A stretch of DNA of 34,712 nucleotides from Bacteroidales bacterium. GTDB lineage: Bacteria; Bacteroidota; Bacteroidia; Bacteroidales; UBA932. Where the stretch lies: positions 1 through 34,712 of the forward strand of contig JAILQG010000072.1 in the NCBI GenBank assembly GCA_024699055.1, given 5' to 3'. Below the pieces are notes generated by a model that saw nothing but the letters and a program-made list of their open reading frames with translations, was not told where the DNA came from and searched no databases. A program made the position numbers and the translations under genes. Within the stretch, counting starts at the first letter, position 1. Each line of letters opens with the position of its first letter. Shown piece by piece: positions 1,589-10,186 of this stretch.

Positions 1589-2587
1589 TTATTTTTTTTG
1601 TCCGTCAGGTAAATTTTCGGAATTTTTACTCCCGTCTTTACCCCCTCCTCCATGGCCGGAGTGTCCCCTCAGCGGATCGAAGCCTTTGCCATAGACTCCT
1701 GACACGGACGAGACCGACACGAATGCGGCGCTGTCAATCTCCTTGATGCTGCGGAGCAGCTGGGCCAGATCGGTACGCCTGATGACGACCATCAGCACAT
1801 GGGACGTCTCCTGTGTGTACCAGCCCTTGCCGTCCAGGACCGTGACCCCGCGATGGAACACATGGGTGATTTCTTCCGCGATACGGCTGAATTCCCTGGA
1901 GAAGATGAAGAGCTGGACGCTCTGCTTCGCACCTGACAGGTAACGGTCGACGACCGTACTGCACACGAACACGAGCATGAAGCCGTACACGATCACCAGA
2001 ATCTTGTCACTGAATCCGAGAAGCGCTCCGTCGGGAGTGTAGGACGGCACGAACAGTGACGACAGGATAATCACCACGTCTATCCAGAGTATCACCTTTC
2101 CGGGGGAATAGCCGCGATATTTGTTGAGCAGCAGGGCGACGATGTCTGTTCCGCCGGTGCTGCCTCCCTGCGACATGGCTATTCCGATACCGAGACCTGA
2201 AATCATCCCGCCCATTATCACGCTTATCAGCTTACCGTTGTCGATGGCAAGCGACTGGATGAAAGACTGCGGAATGAGAACAGGTTCCAGCCTGAGGGCC
2301 AGCGATGCGAACACCACCGCAAACACGGTCTTCACGCCGAAACTCGGCCCGAGGGTGAATACCGATATGATCAGAAGTATCACGTTGATGGCGAAGTAGC
2401 TGTACGATACCGGGATGGCCCCATGGGTGGCATACTGGATTATGGAGGATATACCGGTCACGCCCCCGCCGACCAGGTTCTGCGGAATCAGGAACAGAGT
2501 CCAGCCCAGGGTATAGCATAGTATTCCGAAGGCAATGACGGTATATTCCTTGACCGCCGTCCATATTTTCTGTTTAGTCGCTGCCAT
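1589..2587 (-). CDS. YitT family membrane protein (second of a tandem pair)
   Basis: A 332-residue integral membrane protein of the YitT family. About five to six hydrophobic segments fill residues 15-215, with the signature GGSTGGTDI at 141-149. A soluble DUF2179-type domain follows at about 225-300 (segment beginning VQLFIFSREF, then RGVTVLDGKGWY and the VYGKGF end). A hydrophilic Gly/Lys-rich tail of about 30 residues, absent from the upstream paralogue, closes the protein. The transported substrate of the family is not established. It starts 3 bp after the stop of the upstream yitT gene, so the two are co-transcribed and probably arose by tandem duplication. The two proteins have clearly diverged outside the signature motifs. 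The stop codon is followed by the inverted repeat upstream of the AraC gene. Confidence 0.88.
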   Translation of the reverse strand: MAATKQKIWTAVKEYTVIAFGILCYTLGWTLFLIPQNLVGGGVTGISSIIQYATHGAIPVSYSYFAINVILLIISVFTLGPSFGVKTVFAVVFASLALRLEPVLIPQSFIQSLAIDNGKLISVIMGGMISGLGIGIAMSQGGSTGGTDIVALLLNKYRGYSPGKVILWIDVVIILSSLFVPSYTPDGALLGFSDKILVIVYGFMLVFVCSTVVDRYLSGAKQSVQLFIFSREFSRIAEEITHVFHRGVTVLDGKGWYTQETSHVLMVVIRRTDLAQLLRSIKEIDSAAFVSVSSVSGVYGKGFDPLRGHSGHGGGGKDGSKNSENLPDGQKK

Positions 2588-2590
2588 AAC

Positions 2591-3547
2591 TTATTTCTTT
2601 TTCTCGTGTTTCAGTTTAATTTTCGGGACGCCGACCTTGATTTCACTGAAACCTTCGCCGTATACTTCGCCTACGTTGTTCACGCTCATGAAAGCACGGT
2701 TGTCAATCCTGTTGATCTCTTTGCTCAGCGGCGACAGCTCGTTGCGGGTGAGGAGCACCAGAAGCACGTTCTTGTCTTTCTTGGTGAACCAGCCCTGGGC
2801 CTTCAGTACGGTGACTCCGCGTTCCATGGTTTTGCAGATGTAATCGGCAATCTGCTCGTATTTTTCCGAGAAGATGATCAGCTGCATCTTGTTCTTGTTG
2901 CCGATGGTGAAGTAGTCGATGGTGAGCGCGAAAGTGACGATTTCCAAAATACCGTATATCACGTCATTGAAGGTCTTGGGATCTCCGGTGTAGGAGCCGA
3001 ACCCAGGCCTGAGCAGCAGCTGTGCCGCCACTACTATGAAGTCACTGATGAAGAACACCTTGCTCAGTGAAACCGGCCAGTATTTGTTGATAATCAGGGC
3101 TATGATGTCCGTTCCGCCCGTACTGCCTCCGCATCTTATGGTGAGTCCCAGTCCCAGAGACTCGAAGAAGCCCGCGATGATGGGCACAAGGGGCTTGCTC
3201 TCCACATAGAAGAAATTGCCCGGAATCGCGTGCAGCCAGCTCCAGTCGTCCACCAGCCATAGGAACACCGACGACATGATGATACAGTAGATGGTCTTGA
3301 AACCGAATCCTATGCCGAAAACACTGACGGCCAGGAGTATCAGTATGGCGTTGATAATGAAGAATGAAACAGACGCCTTTACGAGGCCGCCGGTAGCGAA
3401 TTCGATGATGGTACAGATACCCATCATGCCGCCTGCGGACATGCCGTTCGGAATCATGAAGGCTTCCCACGACACAGTGAAGACGAATGTCGCAAATGTC
3501 ATTACGACATACTCCCAAATAACGCTCAGGGTTTTATTTTTCTTCAT
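2591..3547 (-). CDS. YitT family membrane protein (first of a tandem pair)
   Basis: A 318-residue paralogue of the following gene with the same architecture: hydrophobic segments up to about residue 220, the motif GGSTGGTDI at 140-148, then a DUF2179-like soluble domain ([10 protein letters not shown], then [12 protein letters not shown] and the VYGEGF end), and a short Lys-rich tail. Function of the family is unknown beyond being a polytopic membrane protein. Its ATG overlaps the leuS stop codon by the 4-base ATGA arrangement (3544-3547), which indicates translational coupling to leuS. Linkage to leuS may simply reflect operon compaction. Start and reading frame are secure because of the overlap and the immediate N-terminal hydrophobic helix. 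Confidence 0.88.
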
Positions 3548-6279
3548 TTCAGGACGATGTTTACTATTCTTCCCGGGACCACGATGACCTTTACTATCTG
3601 CTTGTCAGCGACGTATTTCGCAGTATCGGGGATAGCACGTACGGCTGCTTCGACCTCGGCAGGGGATGCGCTCTTGGGCAGCTCGGCCGTAAAGCGGGTC
3701 TTGCCGTTGAAGGAAACGGGGTACGTGACGCTGTCTTCGACGGTGAATGCCGGGTTATACTCGGGGAATACGGCTCCGGTGATACTGTCGGAATGACCCA
3801 GGTCGTGCCAGAGCTCCTCTGCCACGTGCGGGGCGAAGGGAGACAGGAGAATCAGGAGAGGTTCCAGGATTTCGCGCGAAGTCGTGCCCAGGTCGGTGAG
3901 CTCGTTGACGGCGATCATGAAGGCGCTGATGTTGGTGTTGTACGAGAAGCTTTCGATATCTTCCTGTTCCTTGCCTATGAGTGTATGGAGCGCCTTGAGT
4001 TCGGCGGCCGAGGGCTTGGTGTCGGTGACGAGCAGCCTGTCCTGGTTGTAATAGAGGCGCCAGAATTTCTTGAGGAAGCGGTGCACGCCGTCTATTCCCT
4101 TGGTATCCCATGGCTTGCTCTGTTCGACCGGCCCGAGGAACATCTCGTAAAGCCTCAGGGTGTCGGCCCCGTAGCTGTTGCAGATTTCGTCGGGATTGAC
4201 GACGTTGTACATGCTCTTGCTCATCTTTTCAATCGCCCAGCCGCAGATGTATTCACCGTTTTCGAGCACGAACTCCGCATCCTCGAATTCGGGACGCCAT
4301 TTCCGGAAAGCTTCGATGTCCAGCCTGTCGTTATGGACTATGTTGACGTCTACATGGATTTCGGTGGTTTCATACTTTTTGCGCAGACCTGCGGAAACGA
4401 AGCTGTTGGTGCCCACTATCCTGTAAACGAAGTTGCTCCTTCCCTGGATCATGCCCTGGTTCACGAGTTTCTTGAAAGGCTCTTCCTCGCACACGTAGCC
4501 GAGGTCGAACAGGAACTTGTTCCAGAAACGGGAGTAGATGAGATGGCCCACGGCATGCTCGGTGCCGCCCACGTAAAGGTCGACGTTCCGCCAGTAGCGG
4601 TCGGCATCGGCGCTCACCATCTCTTCGGAATTGTGGGGATCCATATAGCGGAGATAATAGGCGCTGGACCCGGCGAAGCCCGGCATGGTGCTGGTCTCGA
4701 GCGGGCAGCCGTCGTACGTCCAGTCCTTGGCCCGCGCAAGCGGAGCCTCACCGTTCGCCGAAGGCTTGAAGCTGTCGATTTCGGGGAGCGTGAGGGGCAG
4801 CGCGCTTTCGGGAAGCGGAGTGGCGATGCCGTCTTTGTAGCAGATGGGGAATGGTTCGCCCCAGTAGCGCTGGCGGCTGAAGATGGCGTCCCTCAGGCGG
4901 TAATTCACCTTGCGGCGGCCGAGCTTGTGCTCTTCGACATACACCTTCGCGGCCTCTATGGCCTCCTTGACCTCCATGCCGTTCAGGAAGCCGGAGTTGA
5001 CCATCCTGCCTTCCTTTGCGTCGAAGCTGCTCTCGCTGACGTCGGCACCCTCGATGAGCGGGATAATAGGCAGATTGAACTTCTTCGCGAATGCGTAGTC
5101 GCGGCTGTCGTGTGCCGGGACGCCCATGATGGCTCCGGTGCCGTAACCGGCCAGGACATATTCCGAAATCCAGATGGGAATCTGCTCGCCGGTAAGGGGA
5201 TTCACGCCATAAGAGCCTGTGAATACGCCGGTTACGTTCCTGGTTTCGGACTGACGCTCGCGCTCGGTCTTCTTTGCTGCATACTGCAGGTACTCTTCCA
5301 CCTCCTGTTTCATGGAAGCGGCGGTGAGCGTTTCCACCAGCTCGCTTTCGGGGGCCAGCACCATGAAGGTGACTCCGAAGACGGTGTCGGCGCGGGTGGT
5401 GAAGATGGTGACCGGCATGTGGCGGCCGTCGCAGATGGTGTCGAACACCATCTCGGTGCCTTCGCTCTTCCCTATCCAGTTGCGCTGCATGTCCTTGAGA
5501 GAATCGGTCCATTCGAGTTGGTCGAGGCCGGAAAGGAGCCTTTCGGCATAAGCCGAGACCCTGAGCTGCCACTGGCGCATCTTCTTCTGCACTACGGGGA
5601 AACCGCCGCGAACGCTCAGCCCGTCCTTGACCTCGTCGTTGGCCAGCACGGTGCCGAGGCCTTCACACCAGTTTACGCTGGTTTCACCGAGATAGGCTAT
5701 GCGGTAGCGCATGAGGATTTCGTCTTTTTCCTTGTCGGAGAAAGACTTCCACTGCTCGGGGGTAATGCCGTCATAACCTTCGGTCTCGAACCTGCTTACA
5801 AGTTCGGCCACAGGCCTGGCCTTGTCCTTTTCGGGATCGTACCAGCTCTTGAACATCTTCAGGAAAGCCCACTGGGTCCACTTGTAGTAGTCGGGGTCGC
5901 AGGTGCGGAACGACCGGTCCCAGTCGAAGGAGAAGCCGAGCCTGTCCAGCTGGCTGCGATAGCGGGCCACGTTCTCGTCGGTGGTCTTTTCGGGATGCTG
6001 CCCGGTCTGGATGGCATACTGCTCCGCCGGGAGCCCGAAGGCATCGTAACCCATGGGATGCAGCACGTTAAAGCCCTTGAGCCTTTTGTAACGGGCGTAG
6101 ATATCGCTGGCTATATAGCCCAGGGGATGCCCCACATGAAGCCCCGCACCCGAAGGATACGGAAACATGTCCAGAACGTAAAACTTCGGTTTCGAGGAAT
6201 CTTCCTCCACCTTGTAAGTCTTTTCCGCAGCCCAGTACGACTGCCACTTGGCTTCGATCTTCTTGAAATCGTAATCCAT
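3544..6279 (-). CDS. leuS: Leucyl-tRNA synthetase
   Basis: Class I aminoacyl-tRNA synthetase that charges tRNA-Leu with leucine in the cytoplasm. The HIGH motif is HVGH at residues 48-51 and the KMSKS loop is intact at 685-689. Between them lies the CP1 editing domain, seen from the Thr-rich segment [12 protein letters not shown] and from [12 protein letters not shown], which carries the conserved editing Asp. [14 protein letters not shown] and the C-terminal anticodon-binding and tail regions are also present. At 911 residues it is longer than the ~860-residue E. coli enzyme; extra segments before the editing domain and just before KMSKS look like lineage-typical insertions, not errors. It is separated by 43 bp from the upstream M28/TonB gene. 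In that gap CAATTATA (6303-6310, leftward TATAATTG) is one mismatch from the -7 consensus, so leuS could have its own weak promoter. It overlaps the downstream yitT by 4 bases. Confidence 0.98.
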
Positions 6280-6322
6280 CTGACTTCTTTCTCCTGTTAA
6301 TGCAATTATACTTTAATCTTCT

Positions 6323-7627
6323 TTACTTGCGCTTTTCGAGCCGGAATTCCACGTACAGCGACATCTCGCACTTCACCTTCTGGCCCCGGACACGGGCCGG
6401 TTTCCAGTCGGGCGAAGCCTCTATCACCTTCACGGCCTCGGCGTCCAGGCTGGGATGAACCCCCTTGAGCACCCGGACATCGGTGACCTTGCCCTTTTCG
6501 GTTATGATGAAATCCACGAGCACGCGTCCCTGGATGCCGTTGTCTATGGCATACTGGGGATATTTGAGATATACGTACACCCAACGGTTGAGGAAAACGT
6601 TGGGGTCGTAGTTGTTCATGAACGAAGGCTTGACATCACAGTCGTTCCACGCCACAGCTTCGGTATTCTGCCCTTCCGCGGCGACGTTCACTGGCCTGAA
6701 TTCCGGCTTCGGACCGTTCGCAAGGGCGACGGTGTAGTTGTAGATGTACTCCCCTTCCCGTTCGAGATAGTCGTATTCGACGATTCCGGGAAGGTCCCTT
6801 TCGGTATTGTATTCGGGATACATGCCGCTCGTGAACATCACCGATGGGATTTCCGCCGCATAAAAGGAGCGGTGGTCGGAGGGGCAGGGCTCGGCCGTGA
6901 CTATCCTGGGATGGACGGGCTGCAGGGTGGCGGCAAGATTGTTAACGATCTGTTCCATGTCGGAGTTCGATGCGCAGTATGCGTAGAATCCGTTGCTGCC
7001 GGTGCCCAGCATGTCCAGATTGATCATGGCGTCTATCTTGCCGGTCTCGCCGAAGGAACGGTTCAGGAAATACCATGACCCGGCGTTCTGCAGCTCTGAA
7101 GCGCCGAAAGCCGCGATGATGACGCTGCGTTTGAGCAGCACCTTGTTGGTATTGAGCATCTTGGCAAGATTGAGCAGCAGCGCCAGGCCGGAGCCATTTC
7201 CGTTTGCACCGGGATACACGCGCGTTTCTTCTTTGCCGTTGATTATGGTCGTGCGGGTGCCGAGATTGTCGAGGCGTGCGCCTATGACTATGTAATGTCC
7301 GCGCATTTCACGGTCGTAGCCTTCTATGAATCCTATGGCATTGTGCGTTGTAATGGTGTCGCCCGAAGCCGACTTGAGACCGAAACTGGAGTCGTCCTGG
7401 CTGTCAAGCACATCCACGCCCGCTTTCCTGAGCTGTTCGCGGAAATAATCAGCCGCGGCTTTCTCGTCTTCGGAACCTGCAGCCCTGCCGCCAAGGGAAG
7501 AGAAATACGCAACGTCAGCCCTCATGGCCGCGGCGGTTTCGCTTTCGTACAGTTCACGGTAGTACCCCTGCGCGGAGGCAGACATCGCTGCGGCGGCAAG
7601 TGCAAGTGAAATGAAGAGCCGTTTCAT
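6323..7627 (-). CDS. Secreted M28-peptidase-fold protein fused to a TonB C-terminal domain; active site degenerate
   Basis: A 434-residue exported protein. A signal peptide (residues 1-19, ending ASAQ) is followed by an M28 Zn-aminopeptidase-like fold at ~30-300 and a TonB C-terminal domain at ~346-432 (YPQYAIDNGIQGRVLVDFII, then HPSLDAEAVKVIEASPDWKP). Compared by eye with Vibrio/Streptomyces M28 aminopeptidases, the first His ligand (GAHxD) is Arg118 in GARLD, the bridging Asp (GADDxASG) is Asn142 in GANGNGSG, and the catalytic Glu (first E of EE) is Ser177 in GASE. The second Glu (178), Asp205 (NLDML) and His252 (SDHRSF) remain. Hydrolysis therefore looks lost or strongly altered; a binding or scaffold role is inferred. 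There is no N-terminal TM anchor of a classical TonB, so the TonB_C module is probably periplasmic and not energy transducing. It lies 4 bp after the SPOR lipoprotein gene. Confidence 0.85.
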   Translation of the reverse strand: MKRLFISLALAAAAMSASAQGYYRELYESETAAAMRADVAYFSSLGGRAAGSEDEKAAADYFREQLRKAGVDVLDSQDDSSFGLKSASGDTITTHNAIGFIEGYDREMRGHYIVIGARLDNLGTRTTIINGKEETRVYPGANGNGSGLALLLNLAKMLNTNKVLLKRSVIIAAFGASELQNAGSWYFLNRSFGETGKIDAMINLDMLGTGSNGFYAYCASNSDMEQIVNNLAATLQPVHPRIVTAEPCPSDHRSFYAAEIPSVMFTSGMYPEYNTERDLPGIVEYDYLEREGEYIYNYTVALANGPKPEFRPVNVAAEGQNTEAVAWNDCDVKPSFMNNYDPNVFLNRWVYVYLKYPQYAIDNGIQGRVLVDFIITEKGKVTDVRVLKGVHPSLDAEAVKVIEASPDWKPARVRGQKVKCEMSLYVEFRLEKRK

Positions 7628-7631
7628 CTTC

Positions 7632-8141
7632 CTACTCGTTTATCAGCATCCAGGCATCCTTGGGACAGAACGGTTCCTGTGACACCTTGTGGAGGGTTTC
7701 CCAGGCGTCGCGCAGGCGGTCGGTCCCGTTTATCCCAACTGCGGTGAATCCGTTGAAATAGGGTATCAGCGCAGCCGTATAGCCTTTCTCTCCCGCCTTC
7801 GAGGCCTGCTGTTTCGCATTGTCCGGACTGCTGAATGTGCCGACTATCACGTAATAGCGCCTGTCGAGTCCTGTCGCGCGAAGGCCCTTGACGGCCGACG
7901 ACCTCAGAACCATTACATTGGAAGATTTTATCTCATCGACAAGTGTAAGGGAATCGGCCTCTTCTTTCTGAACGCGCCGCAACGAGTCGAGGCGCGCCTG
8001 ATGCGCGGCTTCCTCCGCTTCTATCAGCTGTTTCTTGGCAGCTATGTCAGCGCTTGTGGGCCTTCCCGCCAGGCGACGGAAAGAATCGCACCCGCAGAGC
8101 AGGAGCGAAGCCAGGGCCAATGCGACGAGAGCCTTTTTCAT
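7632..8141 (-). CDS. SPOR-domain lipoprotein
   Basis: A 169-residue predicted lipoprotein. The N-terminus MKKALVALALASLLLCGC gives a hydrophobic signal ending in a lipobox-like LCGC, with Cys18 as the likely lipidated residue. A charged, coiled-coil-like stretch (about 35-70, rich in Ala, Glu, Lys and Arg) leads to a SPOR domain at about 95-168, starting YYVIVGTFSSPDNAKQQA. SPOR domains are known to bind peptidoglycan glycan strands stripped of stem peptides, usually at division sites; this is the likely role here. It is encoded 21 bp after phoH and 4 bp before the M28/TonB gene, so all three are probably co-expressed. The specific partner is unknown. Confidence 0.85.
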   Translation of the reverse strand: MKKALVALALASLLLCGCDSFRRLAGRPTSADIAAKKQLIEAEEAAHQARLDSLRRVQKEEADSLTLVDEIKSSNVMVLRSSAVKGLRATGLDRRYYVIVGTFSSPDNAKQQASKAGEKGYTAALIPYFNGFTAVGINGTDRLRDAWETLHKVSQEPFCPKDAWMLINE

Positions 8142-8162: not shown

Positions 8163-9095
8163 TTATTGATCCTTGAAGGCGTTGACAATTTTTGTGACAA
8201 GCGGATGCCGAACTATGTCGGATGCCGTGAAGTTTATCGTGGTGATGCCCTTGATATCCTGCAATATCTTCACACAGCGCAGCAGGCCGCTGTCCTCGCG
8301 GCGGGGAAGGTCCACCTGGGTGGCGTCGCCGGTGACGATGAACTTGGCGTTGCTGCCCATCCTGGTGAGGAACATCCTGAGCTGCCCCATGTTGGTGTTC
8401 TGGGCCTCATCGAGGATCACGCAGGCGCGGTCCAGGGTGCGTCCACGCATATACGCCAATGGGGCTATCTGGATGATGTCATCTTCTATGAAGCTCTGGA
8501 GGCGTTTGGTGGGAATCATGTCCTCGAGCGCATCGTAGAGGGGCTGGAGATAGGGATCCAGCTTGTCTTTCAGGTCTCCGGGAAGGAAACCCAGGCGCTC
8601 TCCCGCCTCTACCGCCGGTCTGGTTAGGATGATCCGTTTTATCTCCCTGTTCTTCAGGGCCCTGACGGCCAGCGCAATGGCTATGTAAGTCTTGCCGGTA
8701 CCCGCCGGGCCGAGGGCGAAGATGAGGTCGCTGTTGAAATATGCCTTGACCATCAGTTCCTGGTTAAGGTTGCGGGCGCGGATGGGCCTGCCGTCGGTGG
8801 TATGGGTGATGACGGCGTTGCCGTTCACGGCCAGATTGTCCCTGCTGATGCCGCTGAAGACGTCTTCCACGTCATATACGGTAAGGCTGGGCTTGTGATG
8901 GCGGAGCTCCACGAGCTTTTCGAATTTCTGCTCGAAATCCCTTACCTGCTCTTCAGGCCCTTCGAGATAGATCTCATTGCCCCTGTCTTTCACTGACAGT
9001 CCCGGAAAATACGAACAGAACTCGTCCAGGATGCGGTTGCCGGGGCCGAGGATCTCCACCGGACTGGATGTGTGCAAAGTGATGGTTTTCTTCAT
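8163..9095 (-). CDS. phoH: PhoH family ATPase
   Basis: A 310-residue P-loop ATPase of the PhoH (YbeZ) family, a cytoplasmic nucleotide-binding protein linked to RNA metabolism and ribosome maturation; its exact activity is not settled. Walker A is GPAGTGKT at 129-136 and Walker B is VILDEAQNT at 226-234. The N-terminal ~100 residues include a KH-like segment typical of the family. The open frame extends upstream to 9245, but the start at 9095 (MKKTITLHT) is preferred: it gives the usual family length, avoids a 150-base overlap and non-homologous Arg/His-rich leader, and forms a 4-base ATGA overlap with the capA-like stop codon at 9092-9094. Confidence 0.95.
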   Translation of the reverse strand: MKKTITLHTSSPVEILGPGNRILDEFCSYFPGLSVKDRGNEIYLEGPEEQVRDFEQKFEKLVELRHHKPSLTVYDVEDVFSGISRDNLAVNGNAVITHTTDGRPIRARNLNQELMVKAYFNSDLIFALGPAGTGKTYIAIALAVRALKNREIKRIILTRPAVEAGERLGFLPGDLKDKLDPYLQPLYDALEDMIPTKRLQSFIEDDIIQIAPLAYMRGRTLDRACVILDEAQNTNMGQLRMFLTRMGSNAKFIVTGDATQVDLPRREDSGLLRCVKILQDIKGITTINFTASDIVRHPLVTKIVNAFKDQ

Positions 9096-10186
9096 TCTAT
9101 GCCTGTTTGGGCTTTTACCCTCCCGAGGGTGGCGACCATGTCGTCCCAATCGGATGGGGTAAGCCACATGTTTCTCTTGTCGAGGTATTTGTCCACTTCT
9201 ATGGTGCAGTAAGTGCGCTTGAGTCTGCCCGGCAACGTGCACCACAGGAAGCGGAGTTCCGGCCGGAGCAACTCTTTTTTGCCGAAAGGCCGTTCATTGG
9301 TCATTCTGAGCACCACCGCGAGCTCGAGCCTCGTGTTCGGAGCGCTCATGTTGGAAACGGCGTTGCCCATGGAATATATGACCGGGACGCCCTTGATGAA
9401 CGTCGTGTCCTGAACCACGTGCGGATGGGCTCCGACGATGGCGTCCACGCCGCATTCCACCAGGAAATCAGCCCACCGGAGCTGCTCCCCGTCCGGGTTC
9501 AGCCTGTATTCGGTGCCCCAGTGCGGAAGTGCGATCACGAAGTCGGCGCCAGCCTTGCGGGCGCGTGCGATCTGGGCGCTTATCCTTTCCCTGTTCATGT
9601 AGTTTACCGCCGGCCACGCCGATGTGGCGGCCATATTCGTACCGTAGGTAAAGTTGACGAGGGCGATCCTCAGGCCTTTGCAGGAAAGGACAAGAGGATT
9701 GAGCGACTCGAATTCCCCGCCGTCGCGGCCCGAGCCGGTGAACGGCACGGGCAGGATATCCAGCGTACGCCTCATCCCGGCAGAGCCCTTGTCGAGGATA
9801 TGGTTGTTTGCGGTAAGCAGCACGTCCACACCGTGTTCGGTGACATTTGACGCGTAATCGTCGGGGGCGGAGAAGGCCGGATATCCGGTATACGGAGGCC
9901 CTGCCATGGTGAACTCGGCGTTGGCAACGGAAATGTCGGCTCCGGAGAGCAGCGGCCCGAGTTCCGCGAGGAAATCGGAGCTGTCGTAACGCAGCTGCCC
10001 CGAATGCATCATGACGTCCCCGATAAAGACCATAGTGACCGTATCGACCGTGGTTTCGGGAACCGGTACCGGCGGAATGGCCACCCGGTGTTCCTGCGAA
10101 AAGCAGGGTCGCGAGAATGCCAAAAAGGCCGCAGTGAGGACTGCGGCCTGAAAACATGCCCGGAACGGTCTACTGCCCGTTCGCAA
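9092..10186 (-). CDS. CapA-family (PGA_cap) metallophosphatase-like exported protein
   Basis: An exported member of the CapA/PgsA family (metallophosphoesterase-like fold), related to proteins needed for poly-gamma-glutamate capsule synthesis but widespread in bacteria that make no such capsule. Visible motifs are GDVMMH (56-61), NAEF (89-92), ANNHILDKG (126-134), PHWGTEY (221-227) and GAHPHV (252-257), the expected metal-site elements. A hydrophobic signal-like segment covers about residues 11-31, ending CFSQ. No ATG precedes this segment; the most upstream usable start is a TTG at 10186 that overlaps the TPR gene by 17 bases, so the exact start is uncertain. No other capsule genes (capB/capC type) are nearby, so capsule synthesis is unlikely. 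The 3' end overlaps phoH by 4 bases. Confidence 0.85.
   Translation of the reverse strand: MRTGSRPFRACFQAAVLTAAFLAFSRPCFSQEHRVAIPPVPVPETTVDTVTMVFIGDVMMHSGQLRYDSSDFLAELGPLLSGADISVANAEFTMAGPPYTGYPAFSAPDDYASNVTEHGVDVLLTANNHILDKGSAGMRRTLDILPVPFTGSGRDGGEFESLNPLVLSCKGLRIALVNFTYGTNMAATSAWPAVNYMNRERISAQIARARKAGADFVIALPHWGTEYRLNPDGEQLRWADFLVECGVDAIVGAHPHVVQDTTFIKGVPVIYSMGNAVSNMSAPNTRLELAVVLRMTNERPFGKKELLRPELRFLWCTLPGRLKRTYCTIEVDKYLDKRNMWLTPSDWDDMVATLGRVKAQTGIE

Follow-up and report, generated by a model that had tools for sequence, protein, structure and literature searches.

The window, by which we mean the whole analysed stretch of 34,712 nucleotides from a Bacteroidales contig, carries a gene in which an M28 peptidase fold is joined to a TonB C-terminal domain (TonB_C). 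The gene lies between a SPOR-domain lipoprotein gene and leuS, and its parts and neighbours are as follows.

6323..7627, minus strand: fusion gene of a predicted M28 pseudo-peptidase and TonB_C, 434 aa (open reading frame, PF04389 and PF03544)
7571..7627, minus strand: predicted signal peptide, residues 1-19, with predicted cleavage before Gln20 (sequence reading)
6692..7543, minus strand: M28 fold, residues 29-312, of which residues 102-297 form the Pfam match (profile and predicted fold)
6338..6571, minus strand: TonB_C domain, residues 353-430 (PF03544 profile)
7632..8141, minus strand: gene of a SPOR-domain lipoprotein, separated by 4 bases from the upstream side of the fusion gene (open reading frame, Pfam, conserved neighbour)
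3544..6279, minus strand: leuS, conserved downstream neighbour that lies outside the proposed mechanism (named from its sequence)

A first-pass annotation, made from the letters of the sequence, had described a single polypeptide combining the two domains and lacking a TonB-type membrane anchor, and both observations were borne out. The open reading frame at 6323-7627 on the minus strand matched PF04389 with 84 bits and PF03544 with 67.7 bits, the latter against a cut-off of 24.6 and over profile positions 2-79 of 79. By its profile match and predicted fold the protein belongs to M28 as a fold family, and by the PF03544 profile to the TonB_C domain family. The VIA and Foldseek results concern the M28 part, and the TonB_C assignment comes from the profile and from BLASTP matches. 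In place of an anchor, the N-terminus reads as a signal peptide that ends in A-S-A before Gln20, a residue invariant in both of our alignments (A1 and A2), and that leads directly into the M28 fold. Confidence in the structural model was lower at the site, with pLDDT values of 74-76 for residues 121-150, 68-72 for residues 171-190 and 59 for residues 271-280. A scan for repeats around the gene gave no lead, and a scan for promoters and terminators yielded no surplus over shuffled sequence.

The register of the catalytic site was taken from alignments to solved aminopeptidases, namely chains 3b3t and 2anp of the Vibrio proteolyticus enzyme (AAP) and 2ek8. The metal ligands of AAP are His97, Asp117, Glu152, Asp179 and His256. 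The corresponding positions in the window are listed below.

7274..7276, minus strand: Arg118, replacing the first metal His; pairs with AAP position 97 (His)
7199..7201, minus strand: Gly143, replacing the bridging Asp; pairs with AAP position 117 (Asp)
7097..7099, minus strand: Ser177, replacing the catalytic Glu; pairs with AAP Glu151 (His in the E151H chain 2anp)
7094..7096, minus strand: Glu178, the metal-Glu position, retained in the window; pairs with AAP position 152 (Glu)
7013..7015, minus strand: Asp205, the metal-Asp position, retained; pairs with AAP position 179 (Asp)
6806..6808, minus strand: Asn274, replacing the last metal His; pairs with the His of the Y-H-T motif in 2ek8

Replacements affect four of the six site residues, namely the bridging Asp, the catalytic Glu and the first and last metal His, and peptidase activity is therefore predicted to be absent. 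The two-zinc ligand set His, Asp, Glu, Asp, His reads R118, G143, E178, D205, N274 in the window, and Ser177 occupies the Glu151 position where an active M28 peptidase has its catalytic Glu. The earlier assignments of Arg118, Ser177 and Asp205 stand, whereas those of the bridging Asp to Asn142 and of a surviving metal His to His252 were dropped, since the aminopeptidase alignments give positions 118, 143, 177, 178, 205 and 274. Asn144 pairs with AAP position 118 (Asn in the D118N chain 3b3t), and His252 sits in an S-D-H motif and is no metal ligand by alignment. Other positions than those first proposed are thus placed in the metal site, yet these two, 143 and 274, hold Gly and Asn.

We also examined the site in the closest protein relatives, defined as the best 120 of 3120 matched proteins. 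Arg118 and Gly143 were present in all 120 of these best matches, and Ser177 and Asp205 in 118 each. Position 274 was Asn in 107, Gly in 9, Glu in 2, Cys in 1 and Asp in 1, and His in none of the 120. One could argue from the near-invariance of Asp205 and from the Glu178 of the window that the protein is still active as a metallopeptidase whose site is unusual, but Glu178 recurs in just 3 of the same best 120 of 3120, and the window protein retains neither of the His ligands, nor the bridging Asp, nor the catalytic Glu, so we consider this reading scarcely credible.

The fusion is widespread within one family. Of the 249 genomes in the window's family, 187 had matches at E <= 1e-40, and these cover 16 of 25 genera, some of the matches being partial. 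Among the matches listed for the window's own genus, the gene was full-length in 31 of 37 genomes, in pieces in 4 and neither in 2; one genome of the family estimated to be 96% complete (G680) had no match at E <= 1e-40, and two (G006 and G031) had no M28-spanning match among those listed. Outside the family, both domains occurred on one row in none of the matches listed from 24 genomes of the order, nor in those listed from 394 genomes of the phylum, with at most four candidates scored in each. The fusion may nevertheless exist elsewhere, beyond the family.

For a comparison of orthologs we assembled 110 rows of the own-genus type, consisting of the window, 29 loci from the same genus and 80 loci from named records that were assigned by similarity; 104 of these are distinct. 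The phylum-wide M28 comparison set comprised 29 fetched proteins, for which the M28 part alone was matched, and one (L057) was dropped at the tblastn step. The complete six-residue set was present in every one of the 28 M28 proteins aligned from other parts of the phylum, in 24 of the 80 loci that came from 14 further genera of the family, and in 0 of the 110 own-genus-type rows. The 24 complete sets were distributed as 12 of 13 loci in g205, 9 of 18 in g198, 1 of 11 in g210 and 1 of 1 in both g207 and g212, with none in the other nine genera. The substitutions recur in homologues with the same fusion, being fixed across the window's genus.

The sister genus, g211, has an intermediate state, with the residues H-D-S-E-D-N in two of three loci and H-N-S-E-D-N in the third; the first His is kept, and the catalytic Glu and the last His are lost. 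A second altered clade of 13 rows from four genera (g196, g200, g206 and g213; support 99) has Asn118 and Tyr252 in 13 of 13 rows and Lys177 in 10 of 13. The loci with this signature, which is unlike that of the window, are L072, L075, L079, L080, L088, L220, L221 and L237-L242.

The order of the changes was examined on a tree of 107 rows, made up of 101 family members and 6 of the 28 outgroup rows, from which the site columns had been left out. The full six-residue set occurs in 24 of the 101 family orthologs on this tree. With changes allowed in both directions the smallest number was 7, and the well-supported branches force at least 6; a losses-only model, in which no residue is regained, required 14 losses, a number that single substitutions in draft genomes may inflate. 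The own genus formed a single clade with support values of 100 and 99 in two trees, and was joined to g211 with SH-aLRT values of 99 and 98. Because g211 keeps the first His together with Ser177 and Asn274, the tree suggests that the change of the catalytic Glu to Ser and the loss of the last His preceded the loss of the first His.

The altered site is not uniform throughout the genus. The window's nearest row on the tree (L103 of genome G009, 6170-7390) has an open fused frame that lacks approximately residues 121-142 and also Arg118, and its site reads P-G-A-S-F-A, that is, it is altered further. The rebuilt pocket described below is therefore not universal.

To quantify selection on the two domains, we estimated dN/dS for pairs of orthologs, retaining pairs with dS under 1.5; many of the pairs share rows. 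Between the window and its closest relative, L109, which are 92% identical, dN/dS was 0.049 in the M28 part and 0.035 in TonB_C. The median values for altered own-genus pairs were 0.125 for M28 (45 of 100 pairs usable) and 0.093 for TonB_C (52 usable), compared with 0.087 (7 of 16 usable) and 0.089 (9 usable) for intact pairs, and 0.077 (17 of 34 usable) and 0.075 (19 usable) for altered pairs from other genera. The M28 median of the altered own-genus pairs is thus somewhat above that of the intact pairs (0.125 versus 0.087). The M28 domain had a mean column entropy of 1.27 over the 104 rows of the altered genus and of 1.30 over the 24 rows of intact relatives, the two sets not being matched for size; for TonB_C in the altered genus the value was 1.08. 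Among the 104 distinct rows, Arg118 and Gly143 were each present in 103, and positions 118 and 143 fall within the most conserved tenth of the domain, while the metal-Glu position, 178, varies more than any other.

Ten positions of the protein switch from one fixed residue in the intact relatives to another in the genus (at least 85% in each group), and seven of these are in the M28 part. Three of the seven are catalytic, and the other four (121, 142, 270 and 272) are all within 5 residues of a catalytic one. The probability of such clustering was 0.00096 when calculated over 277 positions and 0.017 over the 83 positions conserved in the intact rows, values that are rough since the rows are related. 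The newly fixed pocket residues in the genus are Arg118, Asn121, Asn142, Gly143 and Ser177.

The M28 part might instead be a relict under relaxed selection that is kept only by its fusion to TonB_C. The variability of position 178, the deletion in the site of L103 and the absence of the gene from some genomes all fit such decay, but a dN/dS of 0.049 against L109, an entropy no higher than in the intact relatives (in sets of unequal size) and the retention of Arg118 and Gly143 in all but one of the 104 rows do not, and we regard this reading, already disfavoured, as very doubtful. Purifying selection together with the new fixed pocket residues means that the altered domain is, on sequence evidence, a conserved and not a decaying one, and we read the pattern as a loss of metal binding during which the pocket was rebuilt. 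The identification of the protein as a pseudo-peptidase consequently comes out stronger than first claimed, as the true bridging-Asp and last-His positions are also lost, and these losses are fixed genus-wide under purifying selection.

A rebuilt pocket could conceivably also be a new catalytic one, with Ser177, His252 and Asp205 forming a metal-free hydrolase site in place of the old. Arg118, Ser177, Asp205 and His252 occur together in 82 of the 104 distinct rows. Asp205 and His252 both vary, however, being present in 95 and 93 rows and hence replaced in 9 and 11, respectively, and new catalysis of this kind appears very improbable.

The chromosomal surroundings were read in 40 loci, 20 from other genera and 20 from the same genus. 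Homologues of leuS were found near the fusion gene in 38 of the 40 and SPOR homologues in 37. The SPOR and fusion genes adjoin in all 20 own-genus loci, with no gcvT between them. In the other genera, 18 of the 20 loci (L069-L088) have a gcvT gene on the upstream side of the fusion (confirmed by Pfam in L069 and identified by eye in the rest), and it separates the fusion from the SPOR gene in all 17 in which the latter was found. The first-pass annotation had taken the adjacent SPOR lipoprotein gene as a hint of partnership; the steadiness of the neighbour was confirmed, but its adjacency is weak evidence for a functional link, given the intervening gcvT and the equally steady leuS. A cell-wall factor acting with the SPOR lipoprotein at the peptidoglycan or the septum would agree with the presence of the SPOR gene in most loci and with the distance of 4 bases in the window, but gcvT stands between the two genes in every informative locus of the other genera and the cluster may be mere old gene order, which makes this role improbable. 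Downstream of leuS, the window contains two tandem genes for YitT/DUF2179 membrane proteins (1589-3547, minus strand), homologues of which occur near leuS in most loci. Positions 9092-10186 (minus strand) encode a PGA_cap family protein, which also matched the NCBIfam model for the lasso peptide Trp epimerase MslH with 56.4 bits against a cut-off of 700.

Possible transport partners, as well as cutting capacity, exist in the genome apart from the fusion protein, since a profile search identified 16 matches to the plug of TonB-dependent transporters (TBDTs), three to ExbD and four further matches to M28, two of them weak and one, of 513 aa, with the usual motifs by eye. PF03544 matches no protein of this draft genome (95% complete) other than the window protein, and the anchored TonB of sister genomes was not found in it. 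One contig (C57) encodes exbB, exbD and then a TonB/TolA-like protein of 261 aa whose N-terminus contains one hydrophobic stretch and which matches no Pfam family. Of 14 other genomes of the genus, 13 have an additional TonB_C match, located in an open frame of about 230-285 aa, and the one that was read (G512) is anchored. The idea that the fusion is the sole TonB of the genome was rejected on account of the exbB/exbD genes with their 261-aa neighbour and of the extra TonB_C frames in the 13 relatives.

A TonB_C domain without an anchor could compete with TonB by occupying TonB boxes and damping TonB-driven uptake, the M28 domain serving only as a stabiliser or spacer. The lower entropy of TonB_C (1.08 versus 1.27 for M28), the lack of an anchor by sequence reading, the 98-residue alignment to an anchored TonB with 47% identity and the 16 TBDT plug matches all fit a competitor. 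Such a role leaves the fixed new residues of the M28 pocket and the low dN/dS of the M28 part (0.049) unexplained, however, and we judge it unlikely.

The reading that we prefer, at somewhat less than an even chance, is that the protein has no peptidase activity and acts as a non-catalytic periplasmic adaptor. After cleavage of the signal peptide the protein would be free in the periplasm. Its TonB_C domain might then pair with a strand that resembles a TonB box in an outer-membrane transporter, or with another strand donor, by extrapolation from E. coli TonB. The rebuilt M28 pocket would hold a ligand, for which a peptide end or a partner protein is the most likely candidate, and the adaptor could tether or report this ligand at the transporter without cutting it. 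The E. coli fragment TonB(33-239), from which the membrane helix is missing, forms such pairs with the TonB boxes of both FhuA and BtuB (PMC11658791). The role originally suggested, a sensor, scaffold or TonB-box/peptide binder, would be compatible with these data. A more specific version, in which periplasmic peptidases turned into receptors, is speculative and rather unlikely; the genus would have built its pocket from Arg118, Asn121, Asn142, Gly143 and Ser177 and the second clade from Asn118 and Tyr252, and the anchorless TonB_C would dock this pocket on TonB-dependent transporters as a soluble sensor.

The family would provide a natural experiment on the role of a peptidase that has ceased to cut. 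One gene, mostly in one conserved chromosomal place and within one family, ranges from an intact M28 set through forms that have lost the catalytic Glu and kept the first His to forms whose site is mostly gone, and the intact groups are under purifying selection just as the altered ones are. Comparison of these orthologs may reveal what the fusion did apart from cutting, and the purpose of a TonB_C domain without an anchor. The label 'TonB family protein', which was the source name of 5 of the best 120 of 3120 matches, and the label 'M28 peptidase' are both misleading here.

Compared with the M28 aminopeptidases, such as AAP (1amp), BSAP from Bacillus (6hc7) and the Aneurinibacillus enzyme (2ek8), the window protein has four of the six metal and catalytic residues replaced and a TonB_C domain added. 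In glutaminyl cyclases a single zinc site made up of Asp, Glu and His is retained. The window protein may differ in this respect from the cyclases of Bacteroidota (PgQC, 6qql/7cjg; BtQC, 7d1d), as it has Gly143 and Asn274 at the Asp and His positions of the aminopeptidases. The TonB energy transducers share with the fusion a TonB_C domain preceded by a K-P-S-F stretch, and 46 of 98 residues are identical to an anchored TonB from the same genus (L260). Unlike them, however, the fusion has no membrane anchor or proline-rich linker but an M28 fold in their place, and its gene is not beside exbB and exbD but between the SPOR gene and leuS, the exbB-exbD pair being located on contig C57. The position of tonB beside exbB/exbD is common, although not universal.

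A fusion of M28 with TonB_C was not described in the portions of the open-licence literature that were available, and a term search in the text of the review PMC11266112 returned neither 'M28' nor 'TonB'. M28-fold proteins that are not peptidases have precedents in transferrin receptor 1 and nicalin, which are eukaryotic, membrane-anchored and equipped with other extra domains, and which differ from the window protein in lacking TonB_C. The fold and the lost site of such M28-fold pseudoenzymes are both present in the window protein, for which action by binding would be the further trait. It is a predicted pseudoenzyme of an already known type, here joined to TonB_C.
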